A DNA stretch of 26,570 bases from a virus: positions 1 to 26,570 of IMG/VR virus record IMGVR_UViG_3300007508_000040. The stretch is one strand, 5' to 3'. How positions within the stretch are numbered: position 1 is the first letter of the stretch; every line of letters starts with the position of its first letter. The position numbers and the translations under genes are program-made. The notes beneath the pieces were generated by a model. The model did no database searches and had not been told where the DNA came from. It worked only from the letters and a program-made list of their open reading frames with translations. Below are positions 11,831 through 26,570 of this stretch, one piece after another.

Positions 11831-14134
11831 ATGGGACTCGGCGCATACTGGGGCGACTTCGCTAAGGGCTTCGCAGATCGCGAGGACTACTGGCGCGATC
11901 AAAAGCGGAAGGATCAAGATGAACAGCGGAGGGATCGAGCCAGTCTAGCGACAGCCGCAACCACGCTTAACAACTACATCCGCCAAAACCCGCAAGCCAC
12001 AGAAGCGGACATCGAAGCGTTTTCGCGAAACCTCCACCCTTCTGGCGCGTCGGGAATTCTTGGCGCGGGCGGATTACAGCGTGCGTATCAAGCCAATCAG
12101 GAAGTGATCAAGCGGCAAAAAGAAGATCGGGATTGGACTCGCCAACAAAGAGAGCAAACAGAAAAAAATAATCTCCTCGAATTTAGCCAAAACAAACGAG
12201 AGTTATTTGAAAAGCAACTCACCTTAGAACTAGACGCGCAACCATACGGCCAAAACCCGAGACAAGAGCCGGACATAAGAGCGGCGGGCCAGAGGGCGCT
12301 TCAGAAACTAAAAGGGATGTACCCTGAGATCGATTTCACGGACATCGAGGCTGAATACTCCTATCTATCTCGCGCGCAAAAGGTCGCTCAGAACAGAGCA
12401 AAGAAGCAACAGGAAGCGGCTGAAATAGTAAGAAACCAGATCATAGCCAACCCCCAAGCCTACGGCGGCGAAAACAACAAAGCACTGGCAAAACTACGCG
12501 AGGACACCCGAGTAAAGTTTGGCTTCGCGGCTGATGTGCAGTTGGTTCCTGATCAAGAAGTTGCCGCACTCGTAATGGACGGTGTCCGAAAGAAGGCCGT
12601 CGAGGATGCTGAACAAAATGCGAGCGCCCTATCTGATGTGTACAACCAGTTAGGCGAACGCGCATTAGCCGCTAAAAACCCGAAAGCGTTAATGAGAGAT
12701 GCAGAACAGATTCTCTCAATGAACTATGACGAGCAGATGGTCGCTCACTTGATGAAAGGGTTTGATCCTGAGAGGGCCAGACAGATGGCCGAGTCCAGCA
12801 TCCTCTCTAGCCGAACAAACGATATGTTGGCCCTGTCAAAGCAGGTCGATACCGTCCCTGAAATGTTGGACGGCCTTGGCATAGCGCACCTCAATGTAGG
12901 GGCGGAATTTAAAGCCCGTCTCCAAGGCTACCTTGATCAAAACGCGGGGGCCAGAGATCAAACTAACCGTGAATTTCTCGGCACTGCAATGAACTCTGAG
13001 TTGTCCGACCCGACACGCATCTTACGCGATTTGTACGACGGCAATACCGATGTCATAAACAACTGGTTGACCGCTCTGAATGAGTCAGGCAACAAGAACT
13101 ACACACTAGCCGATGTAGAAACTTTACTGAGCAAAAGCATCGGAGATCAGATAAGGGCCGGTCTTCAATCATCGATAGAGGCCGAAACCACTGTTACTCC
13201 CGGCTCGGATTACTTTCTTAAAACTGAGAGTCTTAACAGGATGCTCGGTAACATCGCTAAGAGGCGTTTCAACGTAGGCAAGGACGGAAAAAATAAAGGT
13301 GATAACGGATTAGACATCGTCGATATTCTTATTCAGGATGGCTCAATCAAAACAAAAGCCCAACTAGATGCGGCAGTAGGGATTGTTAAAGCCAATGAGA
13401 GCAACCTAGCAGGGGATAAGGTCAACCTCCTCTCCGCTTCTGCTGAAGTTGCGCAGTTGCTAAAACAACATCCCGCAACTAAATTGCTAGACCCTCGCCA
13501 AACTGCAAGGTGGAATGAATACCGATCCGCGAAGCGATTACTCGATAACACAGAGGGATACCTTTCCGATTATGAAGGACAAATAGGCGATTTCGCTAAT
13601 GGTGAGATTATTCTTTCTACTTTAGAGAGTGGCGTAGAGATGACATTCTCAGACAGAACTACCGAAGTTGCAAGAGCCGATCAATATGCTAACGAAAAAG
13701 AAGCAAGCCTAGAGATTGAATTTGCTTTACTACAAAAGTATGGCCCTGCTCTCCGAAGGGATGAGTACGCAAGATATAAAAAAGCAATTGAACAGGCTTC
13801 GCAGGCGTTAAACGCGTTTAACCAAAGGATTAGAGCGGTCGATGAAAATCCCGCTCCCGCATCACAAGATACCGCTGTTGAAGTACCAACTGATAACTCA
13901 GCAACATCTGGCGCTACGTCTTCCAGCCGTCCCTCTCGGGTTCCTACTAAGGAGCAACGAGCAGAAATGGAAAGACAGCGTGATATTAAAGAAATCGAAG
14001 CAGAAATAGCCCGACTGAAAAGACCAGCGCCAAGAGCGAGGGGGTCGGGGAAAGTAGCGGAAGCAGAACTTCTACGCCGTCAGGCTCTCATCGAAGAACT
14101 TGAACAGAAGTTGAAACAATTAAAGGGTTCTTAA
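11831..14134 (+). CDS. Large internal virion protein, putative
   Basis: This 767-residue helical protein begins MGLGAYWGDFAKGFADREDYWRD, an N-terminal aromatic/glycine segment like those of phage internal core proteins. A charged coil follows (QEVIKRQKEDRDWTRQQREQTEKNN), then a long helical middle without cysteine-rich or catalytic motifs. A Ser/Pro/Thr linker (PAPASQDTAVEVPTDNSATSG) leads to a C-terminal coiled coil (KEIEAEIARLKR ... LIEELEQKLKQLKGS). It is followed 4 bases later by the giant gene. No lytic transglycosylase or peptidase motif is visible. Parts of its 3' half are AT-rich, about 38 percent GC in the line at 13561. Confidence 0.6.
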   Translation: MGLGAYWGDFAKGFADREDYWRDQKRKDQDEQRRDRASLATAATTLNNYIRQNPQATEADIEAFSRNLHPSGASGILGAGGLQRAYQANQEVIKRQKEDRDWTRQQREQTEKNNLLEFSQNKRELFEKQLTLELDAQPYGQNPRQEPDIRAAGQRALQKLKGMYPEIDFTDIEAEYSYLSRAQKVAQNRAKKQQEAAEIVRNQIIANPQAYGGENNKALAKLREDTRVKFGFAADVQLVPDQEVAALVMDGVRKKAVEDAEQNASALSDVYNQLGERALAAKNPKALMRDAEQILSMNYDEQMVAHLMKGFDPERARQMAESSILSSRTNDMLALSKQVDTVPEMLDGLGIAHLNVGAEFKARLQGYLDQNAGARDQTNREFLGTAMNSELSDPTRILRDLYDGNTDVINNWLTALNESGNKNYTLADVETLLSKSIGDQIRAGLQSSIEAETTVTPGSDYFLKTESLNRMLGNIAKRRFNVGKDGKNKGDNGLDIVDILIQDGSIKTKAQLDAAVGIVKANESNLAGDKVNLLSASAEVAQLLKQHPATKLLDPRQTARWNEYRSAKRLLDNTEGYLSDYEGQIGDFANGEIILSTLESGVEMTFSDRTTEVARADQYANEKEASLEIEFALLQKYGPALRRDEYARYKKAIEQASQALNAFNQRIRAVDENPAPASQDTAVEVPTDNSATSGATSSSRPSRVPTKEQRAEMERQRDIKEIEAEIARLKRPAPRARGSGKVAEAELLRRQALIEELEQKLKQLKGS

Positions 14135-14138
14135 TAAC

Positions 14139-17100
14139 ATGACGAACAAATACGACCCTAGCAAAGACCTCACGCTTGCCGGTGGTACATACACGCCCTC
14201 GCATTGGGCTGATCCAGTGATACCAGAGGCTCCTGATCCGAACTCGCCTATCGGTGACATGTCGAACTTCAGAAATAATCCCGCCCTACTCCGAGACATC
14301 TACAAGGTCTACAACGCGCGCGGCGTGCAGTTCAACAACGATGACGAAGCCATCAAGCGCTGGTACAGCGACATGGTTTGGTCTCTCGCAAATACAGCGT
14401 CCGCAGTCGGTGGAGATCAAGGCTACCTGACAGCCACCGGAATTGAAGACCCCGAAATTCGCGCCGCCAACAGTCGGCTCCGTCAGGCTTATCACAACAT
14501 GCCCTCTTTCTACGAAGAAGGCGGCATGGGCTGGCGTCGTGGCTTGTGGGAATGGGGAAGCGCGGCGGTCACAGACCCCACCAACCTCCTCCCCCTTGGC
14601 TGGGGCGCAAAAGCCGCCCGCGCTGGATACGTAGCAAGCAAGGCCGCAGGCCAGCCCACCAAGAGCCTCGTCGGAAAACGCGCCGCTCAAGGTGCGGCTG
14701 GCGAAGCCGCGCTCTCGGGTGGTGTTGAAGCCGGACTGGAGTACGGCACCCAAGCCACAGATGTTGAACTCGGCATCCGAAAGGCCGTAGACACGGGACA
14801 AGTCGGGCAAGCCGCTTTGTTCGGTGGCGTGGCTGGCGGCATATTCGGCGGCTTGTTCGCCGCTGTCGGCGCAAAGATGACCACCGCGCAGGTCAACAAC
14901 AAAATCGAAAAACTCACTGGCTTGGGCTGGAAGCCAGAACAGATTGCGGCGATGGTCGACACAGAAGCCAACGACATCCGTTGGTTCAACCTATACGCCG
15001 ACAACGACTGGACTCCCGAAGATCACCTGCGCTCCCCCGCCGACAAGCGCGCCCCTCTTGGTGAAAACGAGCCACAGCCCAACGCGCAACCTACTGGCCC
15101 CGAGAGACAGATCGAAGGCCCGGTCACTGAGTACGATGACGTTCACCAAAAACTGAATCGGCGCATCCATGACGCTCAAGAAAACGCCACCACATTAGAA
15201 CAAGATGGCGTCGATAACAGCGTATTCATAGAGGAGCGTGATCACGCGCAAGCAGTAAAGAACCTCATAAGGGGTTACTCAGCAAGAAAAGAAGAAGGCG
15301 AATTCTCCGCAGAACAAGCGGAAGCCATCGAGCAAGCCATTATTCGAGCCACAAACAGTTCCGATCCGGCTGACCTCGAACAGTTAAACGAACTCCTGAA
15401 AAGGCCGGACGAACCTGAAGCCACGCCCGAACCGGACGCGCCCGAACCGGACGCTCCCGAAGCCACCGCCACAGAAGCAGACGCTCCCGAGCCGGATGCT
15501 CCCGAAGTAGCCGAGCCAGAAGTCGACGCCGCACCGCTGGATCGCGACCCCGCGATCTCTGACAGGATCGCTCAGTGGGGCGAAGCCAACGTCAAAAATT
15601 ACGCAACGCTTCGTGCTACCCGTGGCGGTAAAGCCGCTCTCCGAAAGATTGCTGTAGAACTGAACAAGCAATCTCCTGACGACAAGATCGATACCAAACT
15701 CCCCAAAGAAGAACTGGCTTCAGCCATCGAAGCCAAGATAGATCGAGTTGCATCATCCGCCACTAACGAGGCCGACCTCGATGCACAGGCACGGATCATG
15801 GATTTCGTGGAAGACAGCGCCTTAAAAGAAACTGGCAATGTAGTCAGTTTCGAGGTTTTGCAGAAGGTTGCGCGATCAAGTCCAGATGCTGAAGAAATGC
15901 TTAACAACTGGATCGATGAAACCGTCGAGTTGTTTGGTGCGCACAAAGGAGTCGATGGAGACACTGCCTACTGGCGATCTATGGCTGATCGCATCAGGCA
16001 GAAAGCAGACGCCGTAGATGAATCGTTTGTCAAGCCAACCCCCAGCAAAATCGAGCCTATCGACGCCAAACGCGCGCAAGAAAACACCCACATATCGAAA
16101 CAACTGGCAAGTCTTCCACTTCCTGTGCGTCGCGCTGTTCGTAGAACCATCGACAAACGGATTGAAAAATCAGAACAACTTCGCGAAATGTTCACAGGCG
16201 TTGAAGGCGAATCACTTGGCCGTGTGATCGAAGCCACTCGCGCATACTATCGAAAAATCTTCAACATTCCTGACGACGTATCGAAACTATCTTTTGCAGA
16301 TATCGATCCAGAATATCTTCCTCACATCATAGAACTGCGTGACTTCGCGCGCCGAGCAAAAAGGGGAAAGGGCAAAGACATCCTCAAAGACCCGATCTTC
16401 GAATCGATACGAACGCGGGTCATTAACGACGAGATAGACAAAGCACTGGTCAAAGCCGAAACAAAAGGCACCCCCGGCTCCTCATCTGGCCGTATCTCAA
16501 CAGGCATCGGCATTACACCCGGACGCGCGAAACGTCCCACTCGCACCAACATCAGAAGGGATTGGGGTGGCGACGGAACCAAAGGTCTGCAAGCCGCACG
16601 AGCCAAAGCCGAAGTAAGCAACTCCACCGCCCCCGTCCCATTTGTTGCCGCTAAAGCCGAGAAAGTTACAAGCGAGCGTGTCCAACATAAACGTAAGGAT
16701 GGAACGCCTTACGCCGCTCCGCCTTGGGCCAAAAAGAAATCCAAACTCTGGTACGACCCAATCACCCAAAAGGTATGGCGTGATGAGAACTACGAAGCCA
16801 TGCTCTCTGCGCGCGGCGAAGGCAAATCGGACGCGCCCATCAGCGAAATCGGTGGGGGCAAAGTAACCAGAGCCGATCTCGACAAACAGGCTGAGGCCAA
16901 AGAGCCGCAGACTATTGACGTTGACGACCTCGCAAAAAAGATGGCGGAACTCCTCGCCCTCCGCAAAGCCAAGGGTGCTACTCCTTCAGGGCCAACTGGC
17001 CGAGTCAAAGCAATCCTGCGCCGCCAGCCGGGAGTTAAAGAACGGGACGCCCCCAAAACTTTCCAAGCCAGATACTTCCGTGTTGCTTCCAAGAACCAAG

Positions 17101-20100
17101 GGAGCGAAGTACCCCTAGAGAAAATGGTTGGCAAAGGCGATCCGTCCGATTGGATTGAAGGTACGGTGCCAGCAAGATATCAGGGCAAGGTTGACCACGA
17201 AGCCCTCGCAGAGTTTGTTCCAGATAACCCCGGCGACCAGCATGTCGTAGACCGTTACAGCGTCACTGGCTTTTACATTCCAAAGAAAGGCTCCCCCGCC
17301 CCACAGCCCGTGAAGTTTGTGGATGTGCGAGATGAAATGCACGACATCAGCGATTGGGATGAAGATATTTTAAGGGGAATGATTTCCATCGCAACGGATG
17401 GAAATCAAGAACAGATCGAATTAGCGCTATCGCAAAGGCGGCTCTCCACTACAGCCCTCTCTAATATCATCTCCAACCTCGAAAAAAGGTGGCCGAATGG
17501 AGTAAGGGGATTAAAAACTATTGGTGAGGAGCCGCATCCGAACACACTTACTGGCCCTCAGAGGGATGCCTTAGTTGAACGAAGGATTAGAGAACTAATC
17601 ACCGGTTATCGCACTCTTAACAAGCAGTATCCCGGCGGCATAGTGTATGGAGATGCGACCCGACAGCAAGCATTTTCGCAAATCGAGGACATTTTAAAGA
17701 ACGATCCGAGAACTGCACAAGCGGTAAAGGAAGTGTTAGATCATCTAACCCGAAGTACAAATGATGTTGCTCCGAAGTTTGCCTTCATAGAGGGTATAGA
17801 GGGTGATGTAGTGGCGATGTCTATAAATCGCATGGCGCAATCAGAAAGCGACCGAGCACCGGGCGACTTGAGTTTCGGTCAGTACCATTGGGGTCAGGAA
17901 TCTGATTATGGAATGACATCCACCAAGTTCCAAGCGATGGTGCATGAAATAATGCACTGGGCTTATCTAAATACGCTCGACCAGAACGAAAGGCTCCATT
18001 TTTGGGAGACGGTTGTTGCTAAGAAATCTGATCCCGATATGGCAACCGATTCGGTGTTCAGAACCGCTGGCAACACCTCCGATCACCCCAATGAATACTG
18101 GGCACAGCACGCATCCCTCTACGTAGAGAAGCGTACTCCGGGCGCTCTCGAAGAATCCTACTGGAAGCGCGTCTTCGCTAACACATCAAGAACTATCGAA
18201 GCAGTTCTTGAATTCCTGCAAGGGCATCAAATTGCAGAGGTTGACCCCGAAGTAACCAAGATTCTGAATCGCGTTCTCCCTGACGAATTCAAAAGCCGCC
18301 TTCACGAATCCGCTCAATCTCAGATGATGAGGGATTTAAAGGACTACAAGTTCAATCGACTTACGGAAGGCCACGCTAAACGGCTTATTCAAAGAGCGTG
18401 GACTCTTGATATTGTTGAAGACCAGTTAAAAGAATCCTTGATGGATTCTGCGGATGATGTGTACTCCAGTACACACGCTCGCAATTTGGCTGGCGCGCTC
18501 CTTGATCTAAGCCATGAGAAATCTCTTGGTGGAGACCTTCGCCGTTCTATTGTCGCGCTCGCAACATCCATCTTTGACGTAACAGACAACCGGATACCCG
18601 CAGACGAAAAGACTTTATCCACTGCAATATGGAATACCAAAGGCCGAGTCGTCGAATTCGACGAGAACAACTGGAATGGCGGGCAATGGAGTGACGAGGG
18701 ATCAGTTCGTATAAACGACGTTGAAGAAAATGCGGAGGACTACGCCGACTGGTTCGAGCAGGGTGTCATCGCAGAGGATGGCACCGTCATAGACTTGGAC
18801 ACTTTCGGGATGGGCATCGAGGATTCACTTGGACAGCGTATCGTTCTCGACCAGAACGGCAACCCAAGAGATGTCAACGGCGACGAACTCGACATCCCCA
18901 CTGACGAAGCAGATCGTTGGCTTGCCGAACAAGCCGCTAACGAGAGCGCCACCGGAGAGCAGATCAATAACCTTCGCGCGATCTTTGGACTACAGAACAC
19001 CAAAGATGTAATCAAGCAAGCCAAGACATTGCTGGCCCAGCGCTGGCAGATGGCCGCAAACGTCGACTCCAACACAGGATGGATGGATAAGTTGCCCGAA
19101 TCCATGCGCGACCTTTACTACAAGGACGAGGCCGGAGTTCCCCAAACGCGAACAGATCGATCCCACGCTCTCGAAACAGCGCGGCGGAAATCCAAGAAAG
19201 TAGGCGCAACATATAGAAAACGCGCAGACAAAACAGGAGAGAAAGGCGGATACAGCACCCGTGACATGGATGACGATGAACTGCTCCGCACTGCCCTCGA
19301 CAAATCTGATCCCAAGAAAGCCAAAGATGCGCACAGAGAATTGTGGGCGAGGGTAGCCGAGAATAAAACCGGGCGGAAAGACGTAGAGATTCCTCCTTCA
19401 TTCATCCAGATGAAAGCGGACGAACTTCTTCAACGTCTTGGCGAATTGAATGATGGCCCCAAAACTAAAGCCGCACGCTCTGAAATGGCTCAGATTCTTT
19501 CTGAGGTTCGTCGGCGGGCCGCAAAGAAACTCGCCAAAAGGAAAGCGAAAGCAACCCCGAAGCCAATTATCCGCGCAGTAAGAGATGAAATGCGCGACAT
19601 CGGAGAGGCTGGATTAAAGGACGGTATCCCGCCAAATGTCCGCCCGCATCTTAATGAAGTCCTGCTCCGGGTAAACGAAAGAACCCCCGAACAAACAAGC
19701 CAAGCCCGGACTCTGGCTTATCGAATCATGAACGTCGCCCATCTGTCCGATCCCAGCAGGCCGATCTCAAACGAGCACATGGCTAAACTGTCGGGTGAAC
19801 CCCTGAACAACACTCCGCACAAGCCACTCTCTGATTTTGCTGACCCGGCGTTCCGCTCCTTCCGTAACCAAGTTCGCAAAGCCATCAAAGAAAAAGACGG
19901 TCGCGCCCTTGCAGAGTTCGCTTTAAGGGCTGACGTTCTCGATCCCACCTCGCCACCTATGATCGCGCTTCGCGCGTCGTTCGACTCTAACGATGCCATC
20001 CTAGATCGGTGGGTGGCTTACGCCAAGGAACACAACAGGCCGTTCGCAGGCGTTAGCGATGACATGCTGGCCGAAGTTCAATCCGCAATGGATGACATTA

Positions 20101-23100
20101 CCGCCACTGTGTCTTACATGATGGACGGTATCGATTCTCTCGAATCACTATACGGCTCCTTCCCACGCCTCGCTGATCATGCTGATCCTCTCTCCGCGCT
20201 GAACGGATCACGAAGCCGCAACCTGTATCTCATGGCTCGCCAGAACAAGCCAAAGAGCGTGGCTCAGGGATACGCCCACGTATATGCTCAAGACCTCCTT
20301 CGCTCCATGTCATTGCGAGCCAAGGATAATCTTGCCGCGTTCGCTGGACGCGCACTCTCGAAAACTCCTGATGGCGTAACGCCCTACTTCGTACGATCTA
20401 ACGGCACCGCCACGATCCAGAGCGAGGTACGCGACTTTGGCGAAGGCATCTACGCATCTACCCATGCCGCTCCCTACGATAAATCGTTAAGAAGCATTGT
20501 GGTCGAGCACCTGACCGACGCAGAAGCCTCACCAGAAAAAATCGACGAAGCGGGCCGTATTGCGGTGAACCTCTCCAGCGTGCGCGCTAACATTCGCGCA
20601 AAGAGGGCGTTTGCTGAATGGCACAACCTATCTAACTCCGGCGTACCCGCCCTACTCGCCCAAGAAAAACATCTGGCAAAAGAACTTCGCGACCTCACAG
20701 GCAACGAATACGATCAGGTCACGCCCATCGTCTGTAACTGTGAGCGCTACGCTGACTTTAGCCATACGTCATCCAACCTACCCGATGAGTGGCTTATCTC
20801 AGAATTCATGAAAGCCGCCATTCAGGGAGATCGCGCCACCTCTGTAACCGCTACGGGCGAACTGGCTAAAGCCATGAACTCTAGAGGTGATCGAGGCAAA
20901 GCACTGTACAACGCGTTCTGGCGCACCATAGCAAATGGCGACATCGCTGACGAGTCTGCCGCCAAGTCTCGCACAAACGAAATCCTCCAAGACCTTGGCT
21001 ATGACGGAATCAAGTTCACCGGAAGCCATAAAGTTCCGGGCGGGCAAGACACTCACGTCGAGTACATGATCTTTGATAGAGATAGCGCTCGCCGCCTCGA
21101 TGATTCGCACTGGGAAGACGGCGAGGTTCTGGAACTTACCTCACCCACCCCGAACTACACCACCCCTGTATCGCCTATCGTCAATGACATCCTCTCCGGC
21201 GGAGACGGTCGCACCGTATCGGTAGGTGAGCAATTAGCCGAACTTCGTGGCGTAGCCAACTTACTGGACAGCATCCGCTCGCGTGGCGCTCCATCCCCGG
21301 AGAACGTCATCGAAGGGTTTCGTAAAGGCCCGGTCTACTATTTACGCAAAGGCTCTGCCCGACTCCGCAAGTATGGAGACAAGTACATCTCCGACTTCCT
21401 ACAGAAAGAGAACGGCACAGGCATCTTCGAGCGCGTCGACAACGAGATTGGCCGGAAACTCATGCCAATTATCCGCGCCCTCAACGAACTACCGGGGACA
21501 GGTAACACTGTACAGCGCTGGTTTAAGCGGTCACTCGATGTCCGGCACCGTTCCAACCCAACCGAAGCAGAGAACCGGGTCATCATGGCGCTCCGCACTG
21601 GTGAGGAAGAATGGCTTACCGATCCCGCTGAACGCCGCGCATACCAACGTATCCGCGAAACTCTCGACAACGAGAAGGATGCGCTGATCCACTACGGCAT
21701 CATGCACGGAGGCATTGCTGAAAACTACGTACCGCAGATATGGTCAGCGGAACGTCTTCGGAAAAACACTGACCGCGCTGTAGAAAAACTTGCCGACTAT
21801 TTCGTAACTGAGTCCTTGGCTCGTGACGAAATGTTGCCGAGAGAACGCGCGCAAGACATCGCCCGACGAATGATCCGAAACATCACGGATGACAACGGCG
21901 TTCACCTGCCTCCTCAGTACGCTACCAAGAACGAGCCGGGTCTCGACCACGTCGACTACCAGCGTATGATCCAACTCCATCGGCCAGAGTTTCGTCAGAA
22001 TCTCATGGCGCTGAGTGAGTTCCTTGAAAATGACATTTCCTCCATTCTTGCCAAATATCTGGACGGCTCTACTCGCAAGATCGAATACGCAAAACGATTT
22101 GGCGTAAACAATCATGCCGCCTTAATGTACATGCGCATCTTAGAGAACGGCCCCGAAGCCGCACAGGCCGCTCTACTCAGACCTCGTGAAATGCGCCGCA
22201 CAATACGCGGTGTCGTAGACGGTGAGGTCGAGACGATGCAACGCACTGACCAGATTCCCGCACCATTTGGCGAGAATCAGGTAGGCGCTCAAGCGCTCCT
22301 TAACGACGTGATGGATGCGATTAAGAATCCTCAACGCGGCGGAACTCAGGAAGCCGAGCAAATCCTAAAGAATCCCGATCTGTTTAGTTTCCGATTGTCG
22401 GACAAGAAACAGTTCCAGTGGGATCGCCGCGCCGAAGCCATCGTCGCTGGCTTGGAAAACCACAGCAAAGGCGCGGTAGCGCCCAGTGAAGTTAAGGTCA
22501 TGGAAGACCTGCTCTTAGCCGGTATGCGTAAGCCAGTCGGGGACTCACACTTCCAGACAGCAATGCGTCCATTCTCGAAATTCATGCGCAACTTTAATGC
22601 GCTGACCATGCTGAGTTTCACTACAGTCACGTCATTGACCGACCCATTCATTCCCCTGCTCCGCTCTGGCGAAGTGGGCGCATGGGTGCGCGGCATGAGG
22701 AAGTACGCCGCCGACCCCGATTACCGGGAGATGATGCGCGACAGTGGCTTGTCCATCGAGAACTACGTACACAACCGACTGGTCGGACTCTATGGCGCAG
22801 ACGCATCGAAACTCACGACGGCGTTCTTCAATGCAACCATGCTCTCACCGTGGACGGATTCCATGCGGGAGATGGCAGGCATCATTGGCTTCGAGTGGTT
22901 CAAGACAGAACAGCGCCGCATTGCCAAGCACGGACTCAACAGCCGCGCGGGACGCAAGGCCAAGCGTGTACTAGAAAGGTACGGCCTTAGCGAATTTGCG
23001 ACTGAAGGTGCCGTGCCAATCGAAAACCTAGTGAAAAGCCGACGACACATAGGCGCTCAGTACGACGAATCTATCGACCCTGAGTTCGTTCTCCAAAGTA

Positions 23101-23879
23101 ACGTGATGCGGGATGCGCTCGTTAAGTTTGCGAACGATACGATCTTCGCTCCAAACACCAACGATGTACCTCTGTGGGCGCAGACCCCCGCAGGCGCTAT
23201 GGTCTGGCAGTTGAAGTCCTTCCCCATGATGATGGCTCGCCTGTCCAAAGACTCGATCATGGAGATAGTCAAAGACCCGACCAACCTGCACTCGTACAAG
23301 CCGCTCACAATGCTCGCAGTCATGGGGCCAGCGGGTGGCTCGATGGCTATTGCCGCCAAGGATATTATCCAGATGCGCGGTGACGAAGATCAGGGTATGC
23401 TCCGAGATCGCCACGGTAAAAACATCAACTGGCTCAAGGCGGTCGGGTATAACCCTGACCTTCACGGCGATCCAAACGATTTTGCGGGATGGTACGTCGA
23501 AGGTCTCATGCACATGGGTGGCTTTGGTCTCTACCTAGAACTACTCCACAATGTCGTAGAGCAGGCAGACAACGGAATGTACGGCTACTCCCGCGCCATG
23601 AGCAACATCGCTGGGCCGACAGTCAGCCAGACGATTGGCTTGTGGAACCTCGGATCAGGGCTTCACAACATGGTGTTAGGTGATGAAGGTGATCCCAACG
23701 GCAAGGGAAGACAAGCCGCGCGCGAACTCGTTCAGCGCGTCCCAGTTGTAGGCGGGATTAAAGCAGTAAAAGAAAGTCTCGTGGATGCGATGGCTGGCGA
23801 GCCGACGAGAGGGAAAAAAGGAAGGTACGCTGGCCCCTCATACGGCGGGGCCAAGTACGGCGGATCAAAGTACGAGTAG
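14139..23879 (+). CDS. Giant polyvalent internal virion protein with metallopeptidase and ADP-ribosyltransferase-like domains
   Basis: This is one uninterrupted 3246-residue frame. Visible parts: an N-terminal region with GSAAVTDPTNLLPLGW and a glycine-rich membrane-like stretch (about 222-247); an acidic Glu-Pro-Asp-Ala linker (about 423-466); basic helical segments; a zinc-peptidase signature HEIMH (H1269, E1270, H1273) with a distal E1319 in NEYWAQHA, gluzincin-like; a Lys/Arg-rich stretch near 1700-1820; a candidate ADP-ribosyltransferase-like fold (R2086, GEGIYAS 2101-2107, GYDGI 2287-2291, EYMIF 2308-2312); a NYVPQIW region near 2528; hydrophobic segments near 2821 and 3055; and a Tyr/Gly tail. 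Multi-enzyme giants of this kind are known as polyvalent or DarB-like proteins that enter the host with phage DNA. Weak AAAGGG at 14122-14127 precedes the ATG. Confidence 0.75.
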   Translation: MTNKYDPSKDLTLAGGTYTPSHWADPVIPEAPDPNSPIGDMSNFRNNPALLRDIYKVYNARGVQFNNDDEAIKRWYSDMVWSLANTASAVGGDQGYLTATGIEDPEIRAANSRLRQAYHNMPSFYEEGGMGWRRGLWEWGSAAVTDPTNLLPLGWGAKAARAGYVASKAAGQPTKSLVGKRAAQGAAGEAALSGGVEAGLEYGTQATDVELGIRKAVDTGQVGQAALFGGVAGGIFGGLFAAVGAKMTTAQVNNKIEKLTGLGWKPEQIAAMVDTEANDIRWFNLYADNDWTPEDHLRSPADKRAPLGENEPQPNAQPTGPERQIEGPVTEYDDVHQKLNRRIHDAQENATTLEQDGVDNSVFIEERDHAQAVKNLIRGYSARKEEGEFSAEQAEAIEQAIIRATNSSDPADLEQLNELLKRPDEPEATPEPDAPEPDAPEATATEADAPEPDAPEVAEPEVDAAPLDRDPAISDRIAQWGEANVKNYATLRATRGGKAALRKIAVELNKQSPDDKIDTKLPKEELASAIEAKIDRVASSATNEADLDAQARIMDFVEDSALKETGNVVSFEVLQKVARSSPDAEEMLNNWIDETVELFGAHKGVDGDTAYWRSMADRIRQKADAVDESFVKPTPSKIEPIDAKRAQENTHISKQLASLPLPVRRAVRRTIDKRIEKSEQLREMFTGVEGESLGRVIEATRAYYRKIFNIPDDVSKLSFADIDPEYLPHIIELRDFARRAKRGKGKDILKDPIFESIRTRVINDEIDKALVKAETKGTPGSSSGRISTGIGITPGRAKRPTRTNIRRDWGGDGTKGLQAARAKAEVSNSTAPVPFVAAKAEKVTSERVQHKRKDGTPYAAPPWAKKKSKLWYDPITQKVWRDENYEAMLSARGEGKSDAPISEIGGGKVTRADLDKQAEAKEPQTIDVDDLAKKMAELLALRKAKGATPSGPTGRVKAILRRQPGVKERDAPKTFQARYFRVASKNQGSEVPLEKMVGKGDPSDWIEGTVPARYQGKVDHEALAEFVPDNPGDQHVVDRYSVTGFYIPKKGSPAPQPVKFVDVRDEMHDISDWDEDILRGMISIATDGNQEQIELALSQRRLSTTALSNIISNLEKRWPNGVRGLKTIGEEPHPNTLTGPQRDALVERRIRELITGYRTLNKQYPGGIVYGDATRQQAFSQIEDILKNDPRTAQAVKEVLDHLTRSTNDVAPKFAFIEGIEGDVVAMSINRMAQSESDRAPGDLSFGQYHWGQESDYGMTSTKFQAMVHEIMHWAYLNTLDQNERLHFWETVVAKKSDPDMATDSVFRTAGNTSDHPNEYWAQHASLYVEKRTPGALEESYWKRVFANTSRTIEAVLEFLQGHQIAEVDPEVTKILNRVLPDEFKSRLHESAQSQMMRDLKDYKFNRLTEGHAKRLIQRAWTLDIVEDQLKESLMDSADDVYSSTHARNLAGALLDLSHEKSLGGDLRRSIVALATSIFDVTDNRIPADEKTLSTAIWNTKGRVVEFDENNWNGGQWSDEGSVRINDVEENAEDYADWFEQGVIAEDGTVIDLDTFGMGIEDSLGQRIVLDQNGNPRDVNGDELDIPTDEADRWLAEQAANESATGEQINNLRAIFGLQNTKDVIKQAKTLLAQRWQMAANVDSNTGWMDKLPESMRDLYYKDEAGVPQTRTDRSHALETARRKSKKVGATYRKRADKTGEKGGYSTRDMDDDELLRTALDKSDPKKAKDAHRELWARVAENKTGRKDVEIPPSFIQMKADELLQRLGELNDGPKTKAARSEMAQILSEVRRRAAKKLAKRKAKATPKPIIRAVRDEMRDIGEAGLKDGIPPNVRPHLNEVLLRVNERTPEQTSQARTLAYRIMNVAHLSDPSRPISNEHMAKLSGEPLNNTPHKPLSDFADPAFRSFRNQVRKAIKEKDGRALAEFALRADVLDPTSPPMIALRASFDSNDAILDRWVAYAKEHNRPFAGVSDDMLAEVQSAMDDITATVSYMMDGIDSLESLYGSFPRLADHADPLSALNGSRSRNLYLMARQNKPKSVAQGYAHVYAQDLLRSMSLRAKDNLAAFAGRALSKTPDGVTPYFVRSNGTATIQSEVRDFGEGIYASTHAAPYDKSLRSIVVEHLTDAEASPEKIDEAGRIAVNLSSVRANIRAKRAFAEWHNLSNSGVPALLAQEKHLAKELRDLTGNEYDQVTPIVCNCERYADFSHTSSNLPDEWLISEFMKAAIQGDRATSVTATGELAKAMNSRGDRGKALYNAFWRTIANGDIADESAAKSRTNEILQDLGYDGIKFTGSHKVPGGQDTHVEYMIFDRDSARRLDDSHWEDGEVLELTSPTPNYTTPVSPIVNDILSGGDGRTVSVGEQLAELRGVANLLDSIRSRGAPSPENVIEGFRKGPVYYLRKGSARLRKYGDKYISDFLQKENGTGIFERVDNEIGRKLMPIIRALNELPGTGNTVQRWFKRSLDVRHRSNPTEAENRVIMALRTGEEEWLTDPAERRAYQRIRETLDNEKDALIHYGIMHGGIAENYVPQIWSAERLRKNTDRAVEKLADYFVTESLARDEMLPRERAQDIARRMIRNITDDNGVHLPPQYATKNEPGLDHVDYQRMIQLHRPEFRQNLMALSEFLENDISSILAKYLDGSTRKIEYAKRFGVNNHAALMYMRILENGPEAAQAALLRPREMRRTIRGVVDGEVETMQRTDQIPAPFGENQVGAQALLNDVMDAIKNPQRGGTQEAEQILKNPDLFSFRLSDKKQFQWDRRAEAIVAGLENHSKGAVAPSEVKVMEDLLLAGMRKPVGDSHFQTAMRPFSKFMRNFNALTMLSFTTVTSLTDPFIPLLRSGEVGAWVRGMRKYAADPDYREMMRDSGLSIENYVHNRLVGLYGADASKLTTAFFNATMLSPWTDSMREMAGIIGFEWFKTEQRRIAKHGLNSRAGRKAKRVLERYGLSEFATEGAVPIENLVKSRRHIGAQYDESIDPEFVLQSNVMRDALVKFANDTIFAPNTNDVPLWAQTPAGAMVWQLKSFPMMMARLSKDSIMEIVKDPTNLHSYKPLTMLAVMGPAGGSMAIAAKDIIQMRGDEDQGMLRDRHGKNINWLKAVGYNPDLHGDPNDFAGWYVEGLMHMGGFGLYLELLHNVVEQADNGMYGYSRAMSNIAGPTVSQTIGLWNLGSGLHNMVLGDEGDPNGKGRQAARELVQRVPVVGGIKAVKESLVDAMAGEPTRGKKGRYAGPSYGGAKYGGSKYE
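23831..23853 (-). terminator. Hairpin at the convergent gene ends, possible terminator
   Basis: A perfect 7-base-pair stem TGGCCCC / GGGGCCA encloses a 9-base loop, inside the last codons of the giant gene and 11 bases beyond the minus-strand nuclease stop. On the minus strand a six-T run (23819-23814) follows only after 11 bases, and the plus strand has no T-run, so it is not a canonical intrinsic terminator. It may act as an mRNA 3' stabiliser or weak terminator for the minus-strand operon. Confidence 0.35.
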
Positions 23880-24683
23880 TTCAAACTCCTCGCAAGCCTC
23901 TTTCGCTGGCTTGTCGTGGTAATTGCAATACCACGCTTTGTTCTGACCGTATAAGTCAGGCACGCTATGTGCACACAGGCTACACCGTGGCTTGGGATCG
24001 ATCTCGTTCGGATGCCAGCACGATGTCCGCTTGAAACATCCACGACAGCGCCAATCCGATTCCGTTTTGTGAGCACGCTCTGGCTCGCTGATGGCTTGCG
24101 AAATCTTCTGACGTAAGTTCGAGACCTCAAACTCATCATACTCGATGACTTCGATGTGATACTTGCAGTCGTCTTTGCAGATCGCCACGAGCAATGACTT
24201 CCTCATCTTGCTCAAGTGCATCGCTAACATGCACTGCGCAAAGTAATTCGGGTGCGATACCTTCACGCCCTTCTTCTCGAACGCGCTGAACTTACTCTTG
24301 TTCATCGTTTTAATTTCCAAGACGCACGGCTCCTCATCCACGTAGATGATACCGTCAAGATGGCACACAACATGATCGCCTAGCGCTGTGTACTCGTACT
24401 GGTCGCCCGTGATCTCGTCCACTTCGCTTACACCATACCCGCCCTTCTTCTTCAAATCCGCAACGACCATGTCTTCAAGAGCATGGCCAACATTAAAAAT
24501 GCGAAGAAGGCGCGGCATGGGTGAGTCTTCGGGGAAGCCACGCATAGACAGATGCAGGTACGCAGTGCAGTCGTTACCAATAATTGACGCCCCTATATAG
24601 GAGCGCGTCTTGTAGCGAATAGGATCGCCCTCTTTATCGAGGGCGTCCATAAGTGATTGCGCCGTCACTCGACCGACCCCCAC
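23865..24683 (-). CDS. Cas4/RecB-like PD-(D/E)XK nuclease with probable Fe-S cluster
   Basis: This is a 272-residue protein. The nuclease core reads GHALED (E70), HLDG (D110), LEIKT (E123, K125) and a downstream Gln in NYFAQCMLAMH (Q150), matching the RecB-family order. C39 plus C213-x2-C216-x5-C222 is the cysteine pattern of the Cas4/AddB iron-sulphur site. A further set (C234, C237, C253, H256) suggests an added zinc knuckle. Likely role: exonuclease resecting DNA ends for recombination or replication with the Sak4-like ATPase and SSB upstream. GTG 24683 overlaps the preceding gene by 19 bases; ATG 24650 (residue 12) is an alternative start. The 3' end overlaps the giant gene's end on the other strand. 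There is no CRISPR or Cas1 context. Confidence 0.8.
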   Translation of the reverse strand: MGVGRVTAQSLMDALDKEGDPIRYKTRSYIGASIIGNDCTAYLHLSMRGFPEDSPMPRLLRIFNVGHALEDMVVADLKKKGGYGVSEVDEITGDQYEYTALGDHVVCHLDGIIYVDEEPCVLEIKTMNKSKFSAFEKKGVKVSHPNYFAQCMLAMHLSKMRKSLLVAICKDDCKYHIEVIEYDEFEVSNLRQKISQAISEPERAHKTESDWRCRGCFKRTSCWHPNEIDPKPRCSLCAHSVPDLYGQNKAWYCNYHDKPAKEACEEFELLVL

Positions 24684-24913
24684 ACTATCGCGTTTCGCCC
24701 CGATCTGGTGAGCCTGCGCTCACCCGTATCCGAAAGAAACCCGTCTTTGACAAGGTGCCTAATCGTGGCTGAAATCGATTGATGCTTCGCGCCTAATAGC
24801 ACTTCAACCTCGTCACATGTATATGCCCGAGACTCCATCAGCAGACTCACTCGATCTCTGAGCGTCGTGCCGACGCGACTGAACGCCTCTCTACTGGTTT
24901 GCTGTATCAACAT
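24665..24913 (-). CDS. Small winged-helix DNA-binding protein
   Basis: This 82-residue protein carries a winged helix-turn-helix: an N-terminal helix (TTLRDRVSLLMESRAYTCDEVEVLL), a recognition-type helix (AKHQSISATIRHLVKDGFL) and a wing (TGERRLTRSGRNAIVW). ATG 24913 is fixed by GGAGG at 24922-24918; a longer reading from 25024 would run through the terminator and the microprotein and is rejected. It directly precedes and overlaps the nuclease gene. It may be a transcriptional regulator of the early operon or a DNA-binding partner of the nuclease. Similar short wHTH proteins are frequent beside phage exonuclease genes. The target is unknown. Confidence 0.72.
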   Translation of the reverse strand: MLIQQTSREAFSRVGTTLRDRVSLLMESRAYTCDEVEVLLGAKHQSISATIRHLVKDGFLSDTGERRLTRSGRNAIVWGSVE

Positions 24914-24922: not shown

Positions 24923-24951
24923 AAAAAAAAGAAGGGGGCTGTGCGCCCCCT
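24923..24951 (-). terminator. Intrinsic terminator inside the minus-strand operon
   Basis: Read on the minus strand, AGGGGGC (24951-24945), a 5-base loop GCACA and GCCCCCT (24939-24933) form a 7-base-pair GC-rich stem. It is followed by TC and eight T residues. It begins 3 bases after the microprotein stop and ends at the next gene's ribosome-binding site. The opposite strand has only an A-run upstream of the stem, so it is directional. It should reduce expression of the wHTH and nuclease genes relative to the ATPase, SSB and microprotein. Confidence 0.82.
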
Positions 24952-24954
24952 CCC

Positions 24955-25035
24955 TTATCCCAAAAATATGGCGATAGTCACTAAGGCGATCAAGAACACA
25001 AAGATCGCGCTCCATGACATCCACCAGCGTCCCAT
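24955..25035 (-). CDS. 26-residue single-pass membrane microprotein
   Basis: This small ORF begins with ATG at 25035, one base after the TAG of the SSB gene, and ends with TAA at 24957-24955, just before the terminator. The peptide starts MGRWWMSWS and continues with IFVFLIALVTIAIFLG, a clear membrane helix ending at the C-terminus. The basic/aromatic N-terminus would favour a cytoplasmic N-end. There is no Shine-Dalgarno sequence, so translation would rely on re-initiation from the SSB stop. The exact fit between the upstream stop and the terminator argues that it is a real gene. Function is unknown; a holin-like, host-inhibiting or membrane-tethering peptide are options. Confidence 0.6.
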   Translation of the reverse strand: MGRWWMSWSAIFVFLIALVTIAIFLG

Positions 25036-25036
25036 G

Positions 25037-25534
25037 CTAAAAATCAGGGAGCGCATCATCAAACTCCTGAGCCGCACCATTCTCTGGCACGGGTGCGCTG
25101 TCGTTGGCTGGCATCCGGTATCCCTTTACCTCTGGACGGGAGACCATGACCTGCCCCGTATTGGGATTACGGCGTTCTTTGGACATGCCTATCACGACGC
25201 CGACGTGTAGGCCACGCATAGTCGCAATATCCCCCGGCTTGTCAGGCGAGGGATGCCCTCCAAACTGCAACAGGCTCTTGAGTTGGCGTTGACCAATCTC
25301 CTGCGCCATCTTGGATGTCTTGTGGTGCACGTTGATCCAATGACGGATTGATCCGCCACCGCCCACATCTTCGAGTTCGACCATCACCTGATGGCCGTTA
25401 CCGTTGTTCATCTCCTGCCACTCGGCGTTTGCGACACGCACGTCGTAAGTCCCCGGCTGAAGAATGGATACACCCTTGGCTTCGGTTACGGAAGACAGGT
25501 CGAGTTCTGAAAAACTTGCAAAGGTATTGCTCAT
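25037..25534 (-). CDS. DUF669-type single-stranded-DNA-binding protein
   Basis: This is a 165-residue protein. The core matches the DUF669 pattern: LQPGTYDVRVANAEWQEMNNGNGHQVMVELE, a HWINVHH strand, AQEIGQRQLKSLLQFGG, and a final strand region with RRNPNTGQVMVSRPEVKGYR. The C-terminus is disordered and ends in an acidic-hydrophobic tip (EFDDALPDF) resembling the DDDIPF tip with which bacterial SSB recruits partner enzymes. The ATG overlaps the ATPase stop as ATGA, so the two are co-translated. It probably coats single-stranded DNA during replication and works with the Sak4-like ATPase in strand annealing or exchange. Confidence 0.75.
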   Translation of the reverse strand: MSNTFASFSELDLSSVTEAKGVSILQPGTYDVRVANAEWQEMNNGNGHQVMVELEDVGGGGSIRHWINVHHKTSKMAQEIGQRQLKSLLQFGGHPSPDKPGDIATMRGLHVGVVIGMSKERRNPNTGQVMVSRPEVKGYRMPANDSAPVPENGAAQEFDDALPDF

Positions 25535-26349
25535 GCGGCTTTCTCCTTCTTGATCTGAGTAGGTTTAAGTTTTCGGTTTTGGCTTTCACGATATTTGGCA
25601 TACTTTTCATCATCTGTTCGTATGAGTTTGAGAAGCGTTACCACGTTGTCACATGGCTCCACGGGCTTGAGTCTTCCGCGAGGGTCGCGGGACTTCCCGT
25701 GCCAACCACGCACTTCTTCCGTGATCAGGAAGCGCTTAATCGTCGGAGAATTCTTATCACCGTCCGTCGTTCGCACGCCACAGAAAACGTGATCGAACAG
25801 CGCAGGGAGTTGCTTCGCGACTTTGTTGCCCTTGATAAGCGGCCAGTAATTTACGTTGCCGTTATCGTCGGTTTCCTCGGATACAAGGCACGTCATATAT
25901 ACGTGCATATCCACATCTCGAAGCCACTTCAGCGCGCCTATCATTAGGCGGCTGTACTCGCCCCATTTCACGAATCCGTTTGTCACGTCTTTAAATTCCT
26001 CCTCGACGTGCTCCATCAGTTGGTCGGAGAGTTCAGTCAGGCTGTCCACGGCAAGCCACTGGTATCCAGCCTTTGCGAACTCGGGTGAGGACATCATGCG
26101 TACGATCCCACGGAACGAGTACACGCCATCGTCCGGCCTGTGATCTCCATCCCATGATTTGAAATCGACGTACTCAATGTCCGTGTCTTCCAAAGACTTG
26201 AGACCGCCCTCCCCGGAAAGGATCAGCCCTTTACCGTAGGATTCCGCATAGTGCCTGCACTGATGGGTCTTGCCCCATCCGTGATGACTCATAATCAGGG
26301 TCTTGTCTTTAATAAACTTCGTGTCATTGGTTTTCTTCGTGTTAAACAT
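25531..26349 (-). CDS. Sak4-like RecA-fold ATPase (recombinase)
   Basis: This is a 272-residue P-loop NTPase. Walker A is SHHGWGKT (21-28; K27, T28), with the first conserved Gly replaced by Ser. Walker B is WLAVDS (98-103; D102). A later segment (VDMHVYMTCLVSEE) fits the sensor strand of the AAA_24/Sak4 group, and GNKVAKQLPALFDHVFCG is typical of these phage ATPases. The C-terminus is basic (KLKPTQIKKEKAA). GGAG at 26363-26360 supports ATG 26349; ATG 26358 is too close to it, and the longer reading to 26445 lies inside the upstream gene. The adjacent SSB gene matches known Sak4-SSB pairs, which promote annealing and recombination. Confidence 0.75.
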   Translation of the reverse strand: MFNTKKTNDTKFIKDKTLIMSHHGWGKTHQCRHYAESYGKGLILSGEGGLKSLEDTDIEYVDFKSWDGDHRPDDGVYSFRGIVRMMSSPEFAKAGYQWLAVDSLTELSDQLMEHVEEEFKDVTNGFVKWGEYSRLMIGALKWLRDVDMHVYMTCLVSEETDDNGNVNYWPLIKGNKVAKQLPALFDHVFCGVRTTDGDKNSPTIKRFLITEEVRGWHGKSRDPRGRLKPVEPCDNVVTLLKLIRTDDEKYAKYRESQNRKLKPTQIKKEKAA

Positions 26350-26570
26350 TCGGGTCATGCTCCAAGCAAAAGTCGTCGACCTCGGACTCGTCCTCGAATT
26401 CGACGTAGGTGAGACGTTCGTACGGCTTCGCTGTGAGAGCGCCAACGATGCGATCCTGAAGATCGTCGGACATCCCCTCCCAGTGTTTGCGACTAAAGGA
26501 CAACTTCAGCCCAAAATCCTTGGCTTCCCCGAAACTAAGAACTTCGTCAACCAGCATTTGCAATAAGGTC
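26342..26570 (-). CDS. Unrecognised gene, probably partial at the window edge
   Basis: The frame is open from the right edge to TAA at 26344-26342 and encodes at least 75 residues. Readable parts include MLVDEVLSFGEAKDFGLKLSFSRKHWEGM, DDLQDRIVGAL and an acidic end (VEFEDESEVDDFCLEHDPNV). Possible internal starts are TTG 26563 and ATG 26557, neither with a Shine-Dalgarno sequence, so it may be the C-terminal part of a longer protein. It overlaps the ATPase gene by 8 bases and belongs to the same operon. No family is recognised. Confidence 0.5.
   Translation of the reverse strand, partial: TLLQMLVDEVLSFGEAKDFGLKLSFSRKHWEGMSDDLQDRIVGALTAKPYERLTYVEFEDESEVDDFCLEHDPNV

Follow-up and report, generated by a model that had tools for sequence, protein, structure and literature searches.

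Does a 26-codon open reading frame (ORF) wedged between an SSB-like gene and a GC-rich hairpin encode a membrane peptide that the phage really makes, and what could such a peptide do? The question arises from the viral record IMGVR_UViG_3300007508_000040 in IMG/VR, of which positions 1 to 26,570 were analysed (hereafter the window, i.e. the whole stretch of 26,570 nucleotides). A first-pass annotation had proposed an overlooked membrane microprotein gene at this site, starting one base after the SSB stop codon and ending three bases ahead of the stem of a terminator. All its coordinates for the ORF are correct: the SSB-like gene ends with TAG, which is followed by a single C and then by the ATG of the ORF, and the reading frame continues for 26 amino acids on the minus strand to TAA. 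The three-base distance is true for the core stem (TAA, GGG, then AGGGGGC-GCACA-GCCCCCT); the 12-pair version of the stem from the hairpin scan extends over the final two bases of that stop codon. The features of the locus are collected in Table 1.

Table 1. Positions of the microprotein gene, its neighbours and the associated signals in the window.
Feature	Position	Strand	Remarks
Cas4/YqaJ-type exonuclease gene	23865..24683	-	Profile matches
Winged-HTH-like (wHTH) gene, 82 aa (MLIQQTS...)	24665..24913	-	T run immediately precedes its Shine-Dalgarno
GC-rich hairpin, 12 pairs in scan, then T run	24928..24956	-	Position after SSB conserved in relatives
Microprotein gene, 26 codons + TAA, MGRWWMSWSAIFVFLIALVTIAIFLG	24955..25035	-	Predicted single-pass membrane peptide, N-terminus in
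Stop-start junction TAG-C-ATG	25033..25039	-	Without Shine-Dalgarno; presumed reinitiation site
SSB-like (DUF669-like) gene, 165 aa	25037..25534	-	One base separates its end from the microprotein start
AAA_24/Sak4-like ATPase gene	25531..26445	-	Upstream of SSB

The minus-strand order is AAA_24/Sak4-like ATPase, SSB-like protein, microprotein, hairpin, wHTH protein and Cas4/YqaJ-type nuclease. This gene group from ATPase to nuclease is an early recombination/replication operon in which the microprotein gene is the last one before the hairpin. The SSB/DUF669 name given in the first-pass annotation stands with moderate support: it is favoured by the neighbourhood and by a weak match to PHROG 6015 (ssDNA-binding), but the DUF669 match (17.4 bits) lies under the cut-off of 21. 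Among isolates, Roseobacter phage CRP-810 (OR671924) comes nearest, with 42% identity in the SSB and 66% in the major capsid protein, and the family of CRP-810-type phages has been described (PMC11288001). CRP-810 shares the ATPase-SSB-nuclease order of the window, but only 45 bases separate its SSB and nuclease genes and neither a microprotein nor a wHTH gene is annotated there.

Two other genes of the window deserve mention. Versions of the wHTH protein with about 45-50% identity turn up in other phages (L097-L104, found with a wHTH profile), where it stands beside different genes, follows genes other than SSB and has no microprotein with it; a wHTH profile search of GTDB genomes found no relative. 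Among PHROGs it weakly matches the Ren-like exclusion proteins, and it looks like a mobile small module. On the plus strand, an ORF of 3246 aa (14139-23879) is very large for a phage genome near 50 kb, and the related locus L005 has an ORF of 3271 aa at the matching position.

We gathered relatives of the locus by SSB-based searches of IMG/VR, which gave 15 loci and then 80. Four of them, L001 to L003 and L011, hardly differ from the window. Recognisable versions of the microprotein occupy the same slot in L004 (MGRWWMSWTAICVFLIVLLTISAFFA; E = 9e-10 in a search within the relatives' records) and in L007 ((V/M)GKWWFSWEAVIFFLIFWAALTMIM, initiated from GTG; E = 3e-4), whose SSB proteins are about 91% and 88% identical to that of the window, respectively. 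The conservation tests on the microprotein thus cover three distinct alleles (i.e. window, L004 and L007). In the three-way alignment the in-frame BLOSUM score is 225, compared with a mean of 83 for column shuffles, and none of the 40,000 shuffles reached the observed score; both alternative frames are interrupted by stops. Between the window and L004 the ORF has a dN/dS of about 0.2 (dS 0.85, dN 0.17) based on 18 differences; the synonymous/non-synonymous comparison proposed in the first-pass annotation favours a gene. This ratio is close to that of the wHTH gene (0.15), while SSB and nuclease are more tightly constrained (0.04-0.05). Synonymous sites are saturated in comparisons with L007, and a simpler null that considers substitutions only gives weaker support than the column shuffles, with P = 0.03 for the window-L004 pair and about 0.07 for the other pairs.

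The predicted hydrophobic segment is a common property of the three alleles. Each contains a stretch of ∼18-20 hydrophobic residues, whose lowest octanol-scale value over 19 residues is close to -14.5 kcal/mol, and a shuffled window contains on average just 0.05 ORFs of 20-40 aa with a comparably strong stretch (a fraction of 1.7e-4). However, a 38-aa antisense ORF (12074-12190, minus strand) within a long plus-strand gene of the structural region is even more hydrophobic, so hydrophobicity alone is no proof of coding; that antisense ORF is probably there by chance. Judging from the same-slot homologues and the frame-specific conservation, which bear out the proposal of an overlooked gene, we consider it highly probable that the microprotein ORF is genuine and translated. 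The frame-breaking changes in relatives that would have spoken against it are absent wherever the ORF exists.

The gene is patchily distributed among the relatives. L005 and L006, which are sisters of L007, have no microprotein ORF in the slot; SSB and nuclease identities pair the window with L004 and L007 with L005, and the absence fits a loss in the L005/L006 branch. In L008-L010 and L018 the slot is occupied by an unrelated, Cys-rich and zinc-ribbon-like ORF of 46-48 aa. This ORF (L008:3483-3629; L018 after 365) has a CxxC...CxxC arrangement and weak matches to endonuclease VII and HNH zinc-binding parts. In relatives further removed, the slot mostly contains nothing but the hairpin, or else another gene. 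The expectation that the same ORF would follow DUF669-like genes in related phages is therefore borne out by L004 and L007 but not by L005/L006, which have none, or by L008/L018, where the ORF is a different one. This suggests an accessory gene rather than a general partner of DUF669 genes; the microprotein gene is thus accessory, dispensable and clade-level within a CRP-810-like marine phage lineage.

Profile searches of Pfam, PHROGs, NCBIfam and PADLOC with all three alleles gave no match at E <= 1. A tblastn search (E <= 10) with the microprotein found nothing in phage records and one poor match (E = 1) in plasmids. Motif scans of IMG/VR returned the known loci, and the extra matches were not small membrane ORFs of this type running from start to stop; a motif scan of GTDB genomes gave no match. 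By these comparisons the predicted peptide is a new orphan among small phage membrane proteins, with no described family that matches it. It resembles the small orphan proteins of phages (<100 aa) with effects on the host (reviewed in PMC11323111) in being very short, accessory, clade-specific and encoded in an early operon, but a membrane peptide of its kind is not described in the accessible part of that review.

The start of the gene bears on how the peptide is made. Its distance from the SSB stop is 1 nt in the window and L004 but 2 nt in L007, so the frame of the peptide relative to SSB differs in L007, and yet conservation begins at the Met. This supports an independent start and a free-standing peptide, and argues against an overlap artefact. 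The anti-Shine-Dalgarno duplex at the microprotein start is calculated at +0.6 kcal/mol (i.e. no Shine-Dalgarno), compared with -8.8 for SSB and -9.3 for the wHTH gene, which makes reinitiation coupled to SSB translation likely. Given this junction, ribosomes that end SSB at TAG would probably begin translation anew one or two bases downstream, at the ATG or, in L007, at the GTG, and the microprotein would be made together with SSB and, by this presumed co-production, early in infection. Pairing of GCGCTCC in the SSB tail with GGAGCGC in the microprotein gene (25010-25053, minus strand) could form over the start codon; it is absent in L004.

A conserved hairpin follows the slot. A stem with at least five G-C pairs lies after the SSB (or microprotein) stop in 41 of the 46 distinct relatives, compared with 5.4% of random 75-nt stretches from the same loci, when the 75 nt past the stop are considered (150 nt for the three microprotein loci). 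Its sequence differs among relatives while its place remains the same (L005, L012-L080), a simple rule recognizes a clear U-tract in only 13 relatives, and a few of the stems lie inside a following gene. The terminator of the first-pass annotation is consequently upheld as a hairpin at a conserved position, but a clear U-tract accompanies it in only some relatives; it may act as an attenuator, a partial terminator or an RNA-stabilizing element between SSB and nuclease. In relatives without the microprotein it lies 2-36 nt from the last stop, so the close spacing belongs to the slot and not to the microprotein ORF.

Several other readings of the ORF have to be weighed against these data. That it is a chance ORF with no product would agree with its shortness, its missing Shine-Dalgarno and its absence from most relatives, but is very unlikely in view of the frame-specific conservation across three alleles, the rarity of such hydrophobicity and the retention of the motif in L007, although start codon and junction have changed there. 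A +1 frameshift at TTT-TAG could instead extend SSB at its C-terminus and anchor a fraction of it in the membrane, since GAT TTT TAG C in the window and GAC TTT TAA C in L004 permit tRNA-Phe to slip into the microprotein frame, which is open through the junction (46-56 aa). In L007, however, the junction reads TTC TAG CC GTG, which puts the peptide in the other frame and leaves no slip site, and still the peptide is retained. One frameshift mechanism cannot serve all three alleles, and we reject this reading as largely refuted, with hardly any probability left to it.

Tandem Trp codons are also a feature of trp leaders, which the WW pair of the microprotein resembles. The ORF could accordingly encode a leader peptide. 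Its translation, ending with a stop at the base of the hairpin, would govern read-through to the wHTH and nuclease genes, and the codons for W4, W5 and W8 could sense Trp or slow ribosomes. Its stop lies within the extended stem, 3 nt ahead of the core stem, and the hairpin immediately precedes the downstream genes. Unlike in trp-type leaders, though, the hairpin here outlives the ORF: L005/L006 and many distant relatives keep it without any ORF. In addition, the C-terminal half preserves hydrophobicity and not sequence, unlike a stalling peptide, and the extra helices predicted within the ORF include the SSB-tail pairing that L004 lacks. Because the hairpin persists without the ORF and the tail sequence is not kept, leader-peptide attenuation is judged unlikely. 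Known small membrane toxins and holin-like peptides resemble the microprotein in size and hydrophobicity, and it could be a membrane-active toxin, a minor holin or a lysis helper that permeabilizes or depolarizes the host membrane. We also hold this to be rather improbable: the gene sits in the early recombination operon, away from the late genes; CRP-810 has an annotated holin and a GH108 lysozyme elsewhere; and the 49.7-kb L005 record does without the peptide, which is thus unneeded for lysis in that phage.

The preferred reading, a free-standing membrane peptide, agrees with what is kept among the alleles. All three, L007 included, retain the motif MG[RK]WWxSWxA..xFLI followed by a hydrophobic tail, in which a positively charged, Trp-rich N-terminal face (MG[RK]WWxSW) precedes ∼18 uncharged hydrophobic C-terminal residues. 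The tails share little sequence, but their hydrophobicity is kept, and this combination suits a membrane helix better than a leader that stalls ribosomes. Provided that the gene is real and translated, a membrane location for its product is probable; by the positive-inside rule, the peptide would be inserted in the inner membrane of the host with a cytoplasmic N-terminus. It would most likely act early in infection by helix-helix contact with a membrane protein of the host or the phage, and might be an optional factor for host takeover or exclusion, although no sequence similarity to superinfection-exclusion proteins was found. Among the possible roles, our first choice is accordingly exclusion or host takeover via membrane-protein contact, followed by a membrane-active toxin or lysis aid and then by attenuation of the downstream genes. 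The roles suggested in the first-pass annotation, i.e. inhibition of host functions, an effect on membrane potential or a block to superinfection, are conjectural. Our account as a whole, i.e. (i) an accessory gene, (ii) SSB-coupled reinitiation, (iii) a membrane peptide with its N-terminus inside and (iv) a role through membrane-protein contact, has in our estimate an even chance of being correct.

These results indicate that comparing one slot among related phages can recover a gene far under the usual length limit of gene calling. A more tentative proposal, which we put forward as possible and still doubtful, is that MG[RK]WWxSWxA marks a new family of Trp-rich membrane microproteins, made with SSB from an exchangeable slot, that would block either some process of the host membrane or rival phages. 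The junction between SSB and the hairpin is itself a small accessory-gene site, which may hold a membrane peptide, a zinc-ribbon-like peptide or nothing.
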